From contig OX485806.1 of NCBI GenBank assembly GCA_950295325.1, positions 28,582,001-28,646,000 on the forward strand: a DNA stretch of 64,000 bases, given 5' to 3'. The notes under the pieces are model-generated. The model was not told the DNA's origin. It saw only the letters and a list, made by a program, of their open reading frames with translations, and ran no database searches. The stretch comes from Polytrichum commune. Taxonomy: Eukaryota; Streptophyta; Polytrichopsida; Polytrichales; Polytrichaceae. Of the stretch, positions 50,566 to 57,899 are shown piece after piece (the first letter of the stretch is position 1; each line of letters starts with the position of its first letter). The translations under genes were made by a program, and so were the position numbers.

Positions 50566-50950
50566 TAATTTGTAATGGTTTTCTTACTCACCTTTAATTG
50601 CACACTTACTGCCCAAATGCAATCCACCATCATGTGATGAATCACGGTAAGTAATATTTATTGGACATGTTATTATTTTAATTCATTGATGTACGTAAAT
50701 GTAAGAATTTGTTCATAACATTCCACTATAAGATATTTCAAAAACATTAAAACCAAGCGGAAGCATAGCATGGTCTAAGTATGTATATGTATGTACGCAT
50801 GCATGAAATGTCGAACATGTAGCACATTATAACATAGACAGATTGAAGGTATAATGAAGTGCACAAAAGCATCATATGTAACATGATTTTTTAAAACTTT
50901 AAGACCAAGTGGAGGCATAGCATGATTTGTGTATATATATGCACGTACAT

Positions 50951-50986
50951 GATAATGGATGGGAGTTGAGCCCATCCATTATCATA
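50951..50986. repeat. Palindrome copied from the pogo transposase region
   Basis: GATAATGGATGGG (50951-50963) is inverted at 50971-50983 with a 7-base loop. The segment 50959-50986 is also a 28-base exact inverted copy of 51206-51233, which lies at the second catalytic Asp motif of the transposase remnant. Confidence 0.75.
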
Positions 50987-51179
50987 TCCCTAAACCAATA
51001 AATAATTATTTAATTTGAGAATTGTAATTTATATATGTAGTAGAGGCATTTATTACATTACATTGAAAAGCTTAGTATAAATACATGAGTCTATTTTCTA
51101 GCATGCCGTTAATATGCATGCATTTGTTTTTCTTTATAAACTTCTCGTATGTCGGGGGTTTCATTTCATAGCGACCCAC

Positions 51180-51885
51180 GCATATACATACACAAATCAT
51201 ACGTATATGATAATGGATGGGCTCAACTCCCATGTTACCCTAGATGTTGCGCATACGGCCAGAAAAGTAGGTCTAGACCTTTTTACCATTCCTAGCCACA
51301 TATCTCATGCCATCCAACTTTTGGAAGTTAGTATTTTCAAACCATTCAAAACGGCCTTTAGAAAATATCGGGATTTTTAAACCATTAGAAATAAGGGTAA
51401 AGGTGTCACAAAGGAAGCCCAACAAAGTGTTTGTTAATGCTCCGGATGTGCTTGCTGAAGAAGAGGTAGATGATGAGCATGTGGAGGAGGTGCTCGGACA
51501 AAAGGTACCACAAACTCAAGGAGATGGAACTCAATATATGGTGATATTGAGAGATGATGAAGGAGACACAATCCATGGTGTGCATGAAGGGGTGGAGATG
51601 GGGCGCAAGATACGGACGATGTATGTATGATTTTACAAGAATTGGATGGAGTTAATATGAATGCAACATTAAAGTTAACATCAATTTTGACCCTTCCACA
51701 AACGGTGGCGATTCCTCGACGGAATCGTGACACACCATTTATAGATTATCCAAAGTTTATAATTATGACTAGTGATGAATATATTACCGCTTTAGAACAG
51801 AAGCAAGAGAGACGTGAGGAGGTAGCAAGAGAAAAATAGAAGAGAGAGGCTGACCTTGAGATTAATAAAAGTCGAAAGACATAAG
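51180..51885 (+). mobile_element. pogo-like (Tc1/mariner) transposase remnant
   Basis: The frame from about 51204 reads MIMDGLNSHVTLDVAHTARK, then TIPSHISHAIQ and LEVSIFKPFKTAFRKY. This matches the DDE_1 domain of pogo/Tigger/CENP-B-like transposases, whose usual form is DGH.SH...LPPHTSH.LQPLDV..F.PLK. The second catalytic Asp is present; the third position is Glu where pogo has Asp. After a frameshift near 51380 an acidic linker follows (AEEEVDDEHVEEV), and after another break the C-terminal DYPKFIIMTSDEYITALEQK with a charged tail. The N-terminal HTH part was not found. An inactive fragment; TA is the target of this superfamily. Confidence 0.75.
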
Positions 51886-55277: not shown

Positions 55278-55962
55278 CCACAATGTATATGAGCCACAAA
55301 GCCTACATGCCACATGTATATGAGCATCATATGGCTCCCTCTTAGACTTTTTTTTCCTAGCAAGCTAATAATATCGTTAACATACATTCTAATATTTTCA
55401 AAATTTCTGAATAATAGAAGTAAATTGAAAGAATTGTAGAATTCTACATCAAATCATAACAATTGTGAAACTAGTCCGAAAATCACAAAACATTCACACC
55501 CTGTGTGAGGTATGTATAAGAATACCGCGATAAAGACCATGCGTGGGTATATTATGGAATGCAGAAGAGCTTCCTTAAAAATAGGTGAAAACTATGTGGG
55601 CAGAATATAAAATTGTGAAGCGTCACACATTAAGTGCATTACCGCTTGCCCAGCAAATATATCCTATAACCTAGGAAGTTTCAAGATTGTCATGTGCACT
55701 ACATAGTGGCCAACTCTGACCATATAGGATGTATGAACTTCTTGAGGGACAATCTATGTAAATGGATTGGATTGAATACAGAACAGATCTTAAAACATTG
55801 ACACCTCTGTCAGATGTAGCATACATATAAAGTAGGCAACCAAACCACAAATCTGCACAATTGTTGCACAAATGAGTCAATCCCTGTAACAAATCATGCA
55901 ACTCAAATTGCGTACTTTGACACCAGCAACAAACCACACAAGACATATGTGAGGGGTATTTC
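55278..55962. other. Region downstream of the Bles03-like gene
   Basis: Presumably holds its 3' UTR on the minus strand (55.6-55.96 kb), judged from composition; the rest is AT-rich with no gene recognised. Confidence 0.4.
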
Positions 55963-57613
55963 TTACCATGCACTGTAACAGGAGGCAGGAATTCTCCACT
56001 TGTTGTTTGGATACACACCACAACAGGTAAAAGCATCGGGCTTGTACTTCAGCTGCTTGGTAAAACCGAGACTTCGCAACCCTTCCCTTACTCTCTTCAC
56101 ATCGTCCATATCCAGGTAATTCTTTGTGTACACACATGTCACACGCATGTCATAATTGTCATTAGTTTTAGGCGCTACCTTGGCCGCGATCCCAAGAATG
56201 CCACTTGTAACACCTTCTGCAACCTGCACAGTTTACCACTAAATACTTCATTGAGTACATGCTACAGCTATTTAGTGGTAAACTGTGCACATCACCTAGG
56301 ACCTAGGTATACTGTGTATACATACCACTAAATGCATACAACTACATGCACAGCACCTAGGACAAAATTTGTCACAAAGCATACTCAAGTCATGCTTTCT
56401 TTCCATGCCAAAAAGCAGCAAGAGATAACACTTCACCATACTACACAGAACTGTCATAGGGAAGCGTAGAGAATTCCTCTTCAATATGCACAAAACTGAG
56501 TCGTTTGTAAAACCCTGAGATTGTGGATTTGGACATAAAAGAGAACCTGAGATGAAGAAATAAATCTCACATCTTACAAGACACTCATATGACGCACGTG
56601 ATTCTATTCCTCAGTGAACAGGGTGGTGGAGACCTTCATAGCATATTCCAATAAAAGCAAATATAGCAGGCATGGTAGGTGTAACCATGAAAAAGTTGGA
56701 CATAACCAAAATTGTTGATGTTATACAACTAAATACCTCAAAACCTTTTAATAGACTGATTGGTGATAAGAGGTGCATCCCATTTCCAACAAAGCAAGGT
56801 CACCCATACACCTGGAAAGACCTTGTGCTTTCCACGTGAATTAAATAAGCACAAGGCCACTGTCAACACTTCCCAGAACCAACCTCAATATCTTCACTTT
56901 ACCACATTGTACCAGAATAAGTTCACTGACTCCATTCTATCACTTTGTCCTCACCATCCAAAAACACAGCAATAAAATTTACAGGCAATCAAGACAATAA
57001 CATAATCTTCCAGGACAATTGGCATTACATTATAAAATCGTTCGACATTTTCCCTTATTGAAGTCTAAAAACTCTTAAGAGGCTACTTGCATATGACCTG
57101 CAACTATGCATTAGTCACAGATAACATCACAATACAGAGAAGATAATGATGCAAATTACACGCTTTTTGGGAAACTATAAACCCTAAACCATAACCATAA
57201 ACCATAAACCTCCCCACAAACTTTCCACCTCAACACCAAATTCAAATTGCAGGGACTAAACTGAATAGGATGAACATCACAAACATTTGAAATAGTTTGA
57301 AACAAACCTTTGACCAATCCATATCAACAGACGCAGGATCGGAGAAGATCATCCATTTGCCACATAGTACACTGTACTCGACAGCGAGCGCATCCAAATC
57401 TGTACAAGACACAGCATCATTTCTGCTCAAGCAGAGGCTGCTCCATGCTTCGGAAAGCCCAACACTATCCGCCTCTGACTCTTTGGTTGCAGAATCACCA
57501 GCAGGATTTCTGACATAAATCCAGGAGTCACTTGGAGCCGTGGTGCTTGAGGGTGGCCATCTTTGTAAGAACTCTTGCAGGCTCCGGAGTTTCGGCTTAT
57601 GGGTGATGAACAT
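55963..57613 (-). CDS. Bles03/UPF0696 (C11orf68-like) protein
   Basis: Two coding exons on the minus strand, 57613-57308 (102 codons) and 56223-55963, split by a 1084-bp GT-AG intron in phase 0; predicted 188 aa. The family (Bles03, DUF1917) has an eIF4E-like fold in its human member; its cellular role is not established. Family features seen are SWIYVRNPAGD near residue 30, GKWMIFSDPASVDMDWSK before the splice, GILGIAAKV, VCVYT-like VTCVYTKNYLDMDDVKRV, and LKYKPDAFTCCGVYPNNKWR near the end. The start ATG follows a telo-box motif. The stop TAA overlaps a good donor (TG|GTAAGA), so the last residues could differ by splicing; a trial acceptor at about 55891 would also stop at once. A hairpin covers the acceptor of the intron. 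Confidence 0.8.
56225..56289. repeat. Perfect 21-bp hairpin abutting the 3' splice site
   Basis: 56225-56245 (TGCACAGTTTACCACTAAAT and one more base) is the exact inverse of 56269-56289, with a 23-base loop. On the minus strand the A of the acceptor AG is the last base of the stem and the G directly follows. The stem contains CACTAAATA, the terminal motif of the foldback elements in this window. Confidence 0.9.
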
Positions 57614-57614
57614 G

Positions 57615-57650
57615 TCTGGGGTTTAGGAGGTAGGGTTTAGGGTTTAAGCC
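57615..57650 (-). promoter_or_regulatory. Telo-box in the leader of the Bles03-like gene
   Basis: On the minus strand TTAAACCCTAAACCCTA (57631-57647) lies about 20 bases upstream of the ATG. AAACCCTAA telo-boxes are known in leaders and promoters of plant translation and growth genes. An imperfect AAACCCTAAACCATA run also lies inside the intron (57180-57212). Confidence 0.6.
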
Positions 57651-57899
57651 CAGAGTAAAAGCTGCCTGCAATTCCCAGCATCAACAACAAGCCATGCCAC
57701 CTCTTCGCATACCAACACGCACTATTTACTTGTCGTAAGTTGAAAGTTGTAAAACGAAGGCCAACAATTAACACAGGCCACCGTACATTCAAGAAAACTG
57801 CACTCACCCATGTGAATTGAAATACAATTCACCCCAGAAACAAACTCACCATAATCATGCCACACGGCAGCTAAGAATTGCAACAAACACCCTTACCAA

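Follow-up and report, generated by a model that had tools for sequence, protein, structure and literature searches.

The intron of a Bles03-like gene in Polytrichum commune ends, on the minus strand, in a perfect hairpin whose last paired base is the A of the acceptor AG. How did such a stem come to lie flush with a splice acceptor, and does splicing make use of it or merely put up with it? We analysed the window in which the gene lies (a 64-kb stretch of DNA, to which all positions below refer unless another sequence is named), together with the neighbouring sequence and the whole genome.

The gene and the hairpin at its acceptor

The features of the gene and of the hairpin are the following (a slash marks an exon-intron border).

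57308..57613, minus strand: coding part of exon 1 of gene copy 1, 102 aa (ending ...DWSK), from the open frame and a PF08939 match
56224..57307, minus strand: intron of 1084 nt, AAG/GTTTGT ... TGTGCAG/GTT, from the continuity of the protein across the junction
55963..56223, minus strand: coding part of exon 2, 86 aa and stop, matching PF08939 positions 182-252
56269..56289, minus strand: 5' arm of the hairpin (inverted copy), 21 nt, holding CACTAAATA, from an inverted-repeat scan
56246..56268, minus strand: loop of the hairpin, 23 nt, holding TACTCAATG at 56249-56257, with a candidate branch-point A at 56252
56225..56245, minus strand: 3' arm of the hairpin, terminating in the CA of CAG, with a decoy TTTAG at 56239-56243, from the inverted-repeat scan and the fold
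56224..56225, minus strand: acceptor AG, the A being the final stem pair and the G immediately outside

PF08939 (Bles03) matches were found on either side of the intron. The junction CAG/GTT (56224/56223) joins two open exons with intact frames in each of three gene copies, yielding proteins of 188, 187 and 187 aa that match PF08939 with E values of 8.5e-37, 2e-33 and 1.1e-34, respectively. The joined copy-1 protein also aligns with human BLES03 (1ZTP; E 6e-20), gap-free at the junction, and because of this continuity the sequence makes it very likely that CAG/GTT is the correct acceptor. An alternative acceptor, GTTGCAG/AAG, shifts the frame, and the decoy TTTAG/TGG inside the stem leads to a stop codon if used. 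An upstream acceptor-like site, TTGCAG/GTC at 57098, is found in copies 1 and 2 and is absent from copy 3; it runs into a stop after four codons. The original prediction described the intron as the only coding one, which is true of the present gene model. A donor-like GGTAAGA (55961-55967) overlaps the exon 2 stop codon, and hence the C-terminus might be longer and involve another splicing step. The genome itself reads as that of a plant, with TTTAGGG repeats where C1 begins and 58 chlorophyll a/b-binding matches, 14 of them with identical scores within 95 kb (C5, 1751760-1846160).

The two arms of the hairpin (56225-56245 and 56269-56289) are complementary at 21 of 21 positions (100%) and are separated by a 23-nt loop, so the exact stem and loop sizes first proposed are correct. 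On the minus strand, the last 65 bases up to the acceptor A are the hairpin itself (21 + 23 + 21). The proposed placement of the AG at the foot of the stem, with the bases upstream of it inside the stem, likewise stands: pairing ends at the A and leaves the G just outside. With loops of 3-60 nt allowed, this is the longest perfect inverted repeat in the window, the runner-up having 15 bp. Perfect inverted repeats in eight dinucleotide shuffles of the window did not exceed 12 bp, and thus a 21-bp perfect hairpin is far beyond chance for random sequence.

Genomic sequence holds other such structures. The adjoining 37 kb contain another 21-bp perfect hairpin with a 3-nt loop, besides those of the paralogues, and one 23-bp perfect hairpin was found in 60 kb sampled from 20 other loci, a non-random sample since the loci were chosen via a 14-mer match. 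Altogether, three distinct perfect hairpins of at least 20 bp occur in the ~161 kb examined, which as a rough inference corresponds to thousands in 408 Mb; some would then be expected to lie flush with acceptors by chance. Long perfect hairpins being this common, the register with the acceptor may be a coincidence. Elsewhere in the window, a possible MITE-like element at 50922-51233 is suggested by long inverted repeats (34 nt at 94% and 21 nt at 95%) together with a perfect hairpin of 15 bp (50949-50985).

Three tandem copies

The Bles03-like gene forms a tandem array of three (C4 28638200, 28651857 and 28665084), with units spaced 13.2 and 13.7 kb. A 30-kb contig, C47, repeats two of the array units with 99.993% identity to C4 over 30 kb and is probably a haplotig or an assembly duplicate. 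All 15 PF08939 matches in the genome fall in the array or in C47. A distant Bles03 paralogue was considered as an outgroup and discarded, the only other protein match being weak (E 0.6, 33% identity, with an internal stop).

The hairpin is present in all three gene copies. Its stem is perfect in copies 1 and 3, the latter showing a single change in the loop. In copy 2, a C to T change in the 5' arm converts a C-G pair into a U.G wobble, which preserves pairing in the RNA. As this is the one variable pair of the stem among the copies, it is uninformative for covariation, and hence on compensatory changes. Perfect pairing had been read as a sign of recent origin or selection. A sudden origin or selection is, in our judgement, the right implication; 'recent', taken to mean that the hairpin arose after the gene copies did, is not supported, since all three carry it. 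Most simply, the hairpin predates the triplication, unless it spread by gene conversion. An assembly artefact is ruled out, as three diverged copies and contig C47 carry the structure.

The copies differ in other respects. The intron is 546 nt long in copy 3, compared with 1084 and 1128 nt in the other copies; about 530 intron bases (56735-57267) are missing in copy 3, and a TATTyAGTT-like match was seen by eye at the breakpoint. Just upstream of the copy-1 start codon, a 15-base telomere-type insert (AAACCCTAAACCC, 57634-57648) is found that copies 2 and 3 do not have, and adjoining it are 10 substitutions clustered in 50 columns that those two copies do not share. Exon 2 (55963-56223) diverges strongly among the copies, and that of copy 1 includes three in-frame bases absent from copies 2 and 3.

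Origin of the stem

A direct repeat at the end of the intron bears on how the stem arose. Its parts are as follows.

56302..56362, minus strand: unit 1, a direct repeat that matches the hairpin unit but lacks its 5' arm and presumably shows the state before the event, from alignment
56224..56301, minus strand: unit 2, the repeat unit containing the hairpin, from alignment
56260..56285, minus strand: 26 nt of unit 2 whose excision restores alignment to unit 1, taken as inverted copy and re-copied flank
56323..56333, minus strand: ATTTAGTGGTA of unit 1, a second, weaker partner (11 bp) of the 5' arm, from the inverted-repeat scan, alignment and fold

Unit 1 lies directly upstream of unit 2, and the two have in common TCCTAGGTG[C/A]TGTGCA at their start, as well as ATTTAGTGGTA. 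Aligned without alteration, they score 36.5, a value reached by none of 2000 shuffles (maximum 31.5). When the 26 nt are excised from unit 2, the score rises to 51, for a null maximum of 30.5 in 60 shuffles of unit 1 given the same freedom; three shifted versions of the cut score equally. The excised segment is made up of 17 bases from the 21-base inverted copy plus GCTGTAGCA; judged by eye, the latter looks like the flank copied a second time (compare GCTGTGCA in unit 1). An excision that restores the alignment in this manner is the signature of a template-switch mutation, in which the reverse complement of a nearby sequence is inserted in one event; here, the inverted match extends over 21 of 21 bases.

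Template switching has been reported to make perfect stems in a single event (PMC8794818). The hairpins described there by Monttinen and Loytynoja resemble the present one in their perfect stems, in being inverted copies of adjacent sequence and in that the presumed pre-event form can still be read, in our case in a repeat copy. The cases consulted from that study concern microRNA and rRNA genes; in contrast, the source here would be the final stretch of an intron, with a splice acceptor at the end of the stem. A narrow literature search with a single wording found no paper joining template switch mutation, splice and hairpin.

A template switch is thus the best-supported account of the hairpin, although we infer both the switch and its direction from the sequence. 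The only stand-in for a stem-free ancestor is the internal repeat unit 1, and this unit could conversely be a former hairpin unit that lost its arm. In the favoured direction, the event would have occurred in an ancestor of the three gene copies, while the end of this intron was being replicated. Within one direct-repeat unit, replication would have switched template at a TGCA palindrome for about 17-21 bases and then returned to a point a few bases upstream, so that a single event wrote the final intron bases in inverted form and thereby made a perfect hairpin flush with the acceptor.

The original prediction saw in the stem a possible minimal foldback element that supplied the acceptor. The hairpin does have inverted terminal repeats flanking a short spacer and a palindromic TGCA at both ends, as a foldback or MITE-like element might. 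However, a mobile element should occur in multiple dispersed copies, and our DNA searches and 21-mer pattern found copies only in the tandem array and in the duplicate contig. DNA searches of the genome with 111 and 141 bases revealed no family outside these two places; such searches omit very common words, so that an abundant family could escape them, yet the motif counts were below those of reversed controls. With up to three mismatches, the 21-mer has 16 matches in the whole genome (reversed control, 26), 10 of which are the array and duplicate contig; the other six each have three mismatches, and none is closer. The 14-mer, with at most one mismatch, has 251 matches, 10 of them in the array, and is rarer than its reversed control (428). 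At 20 of the 14-mer loci outside the array, we looked for a partner arm within 400 nt: three loci offer one with three mismatches, and no locus offers a closer match. No target-site duplication was seen by eye, the only candidate being the 4-base palindrome TGCA, itself part of the stem. In addition, unit 1 has part of the acceptor-side sequence without an inverted arm. We therefore consider a mobile origin of the acceptor highly improbable.

Folding, splicing and constraint

The hairpin alone has a predicted folding energy of about -32 kcal/mol (-30 in copy 2), and none of 200 shuffles of the 221-nt intron end folds as well as the native sequence (z -4.71). In the copy-1 fold, the probability of being unpaired is 0.0 for the acceptor A and 1.0 for the G; the TACTCAATG segment of the loop is 47-94% unpaired and TTTAG is paired. 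In both copies 1 and 3, the acceptor A and the bases upstream are predicted to be fully paired, and the helix is predicted to extend beyond a mismatch into the first exon bases, which is not the case in copy 2. An RNA switch through the second partner of the 5' arm in unit 1 was also considered; it is possible during transcription, but the alternative fold is 12 kcal/mol worse at equilibrium (-37.4 versus -49.6), and we rejected it.

No strict CTRAY motif occurs within 150 nt of the junction, and the branch point can therefore only be guessed from the sequence. CACTAAATA, part of the 5' arm, is 48 nt away from the junction. The loop offers a nearer YTNAN candidate, whose A at 56252 precedes the junction by 28 nt, and this is our guess.

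The idea that the hairpin 'occludes' the 3' splice site goes beyond what the data show: the A is predicted to be paired, yet the loop contains the likely branch point. To go by the title of a 1995 article by Liu et al., hairpins placed at a 3' splice site are reportedly not inhibitory in Nicotiana. Nuclear SHAPE data from Arabidopsis associate splicing with open branch sites; spliced and unspliced introns were alike at 3' splice sites in that comparison, which left out the last two intron bases, and reactivity was generally low immediately upstream of the AG (PMC7784297). The same article also cites, as helping, stem-loops that lie between the branch site and the 3' splice site of yeast introns. 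Those stem-loops, like the present hairpin, are structures at the intron end with the AG at their base, but their stem lies past the branch site, whereas the putative branch point here is inside the loop. In human transcripts, in contrast, CAG sites sequestered in longer stems can act atypically (PMC11802449). Weighing these reports and the predicted fold, we think that the stem is tolerated and may help to choose the CAG; occlusion is a conjecture.

If the stem hid its acceptor, splicing would be inefficient or conditional, with intron retention or use of the upstream TTGCAG/GTC. The fully paired A and upstream bases of copies 1 and 3, the site at 57098 available in copies 1 and 2 and the atypical human CAG sites (PMC11802449) speak for this view. 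Nevertheless, copy 3 is devoid of the upstream site, the plant SHAPE data gave no 3' splice site effect (PMC7784297) and the branch-point candidate is open. We regard a hidden acceptor as decidedly unlikely.

A 21-bp stem fits plant dicing, and the hairpin might instead belong to a 5'-tailed mirtron, from which splicing, debranching and 5' trimming would release a 65-nt hairpin to be diced to 21-nt small RNAs. Plant mirtrons have been reported, in a study limited to introns under 300 nt (PMC3278437). Several features agree with the 5'-tailed type: the hairpin abuts the 3' end of an intron of about 1 kb, with the stem ending at the A of AG; its 65-66 nt equal the mean distance from the intron end (-65) at which such mirtrons start in human and mouse; and each arm begins with U, a feature of most 5'-tailed mirtron arms (PMC4556696). 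In contrast, the 5' arm is G-poor where mammalian 5'-tailed mirtrons are G-rich (PMC4556696), the stem is perfect and the loop has 23 bases. No known RNA family could be assigned, since no Rfam model was above threshold over 55900-57700, where all miRNA families fell below the gathering score (best mir-7563, 28.7 of 80 bits). Neither is there an excess of near-complementary sites in the genome (six outside the array, all with three mismatches; reversed control, 26). A mirtron thus appears very unlikely.

Variation among the three gene copies is low around the hairpin. Units 1 and 2 together have 4 variable columns of 139, fewer than the upstream intron (34/314, p 0.005), exon 2 (33/258, p 0.0009) and all other homologous columns (118/1406, p 0.02), but not different from the 3' UTR (18/383, p 0.46). 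For the 65-base hairpin alone (2/65), the difference has a p value of 0.06 against the upstream intron and 0.02 against exon 2. By site shuffling within 1545 homologous columns, a 208-column stretch with four variable sites has a p value of 0.0065, the lowest of five settings of this test (0 to 4 variable sites allowed: p 0.29, 0.13, 0.27, 0.02 and 0.0065), three of which were not significant. The low variation may reflect constraint or gene conversion. The copies are mosaic, copies 1 and 2 being identical throughout the 3' UTR but strongly diverged in exon 2, and gene conversion therefore accounts for the low variation as well as selection does. In exon 2, dS and dN are 0.117 and 0.109 between copies 1 and 2, 0.019 and 0.058 between copies 1 and 3 (with one synonymous change) and 0.146 and 0.125 between copies 2 and 3. 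With dN near or above dS, on small numbers, the coding part is likewise without clear constraint.

A template-switch hairpin may relate to splicing in several ways. We favour, with a probability of about 0.5, a template switch that left a splicing-compatible stem. The RNA stem would form (about -32 kcal/mol) and yet allow splicing at the AG at its foot, with the loop leaving the likely branch point open, the AG sitting where the helix ends and the stem covering the decoy TAG that leads to a stop codon. The same hairpin might also be a pure passenger that landed at the acceptor by chance, is ignored by splicing and was kept intact through gene conversion. The frequency of perfect hairpins of at least 20 bp (three in about 161 kb), the mosaic identity among copies and the wobble tolerated in one of them are consistent with a passenger, whereas the 208-column stretch of low variation (p 0.0065, best of five settings) and the exact register with the AG argue against it; on balance, we find a passenger possible but doubtful. 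It is unlikely, in our assessment, that the single switch made a structure-defined 3' splice site since kept by selection, a reading in line with an intron end that changes less than the coding exon.

The splicing-compatible stem that we favour would be a new RNA structure that appeared suddenly at a splice site, any control of splicing by it being only hypothetical. If the stem is used, a single copying error would have produced, in one step, either a whole structured splice acceptor or an intron end shaped like a mirtron, and the three paralogues would be natural test variants. If it is unused, the locus would show what strength of hairpin is tolerated by a plant 3' splice site.
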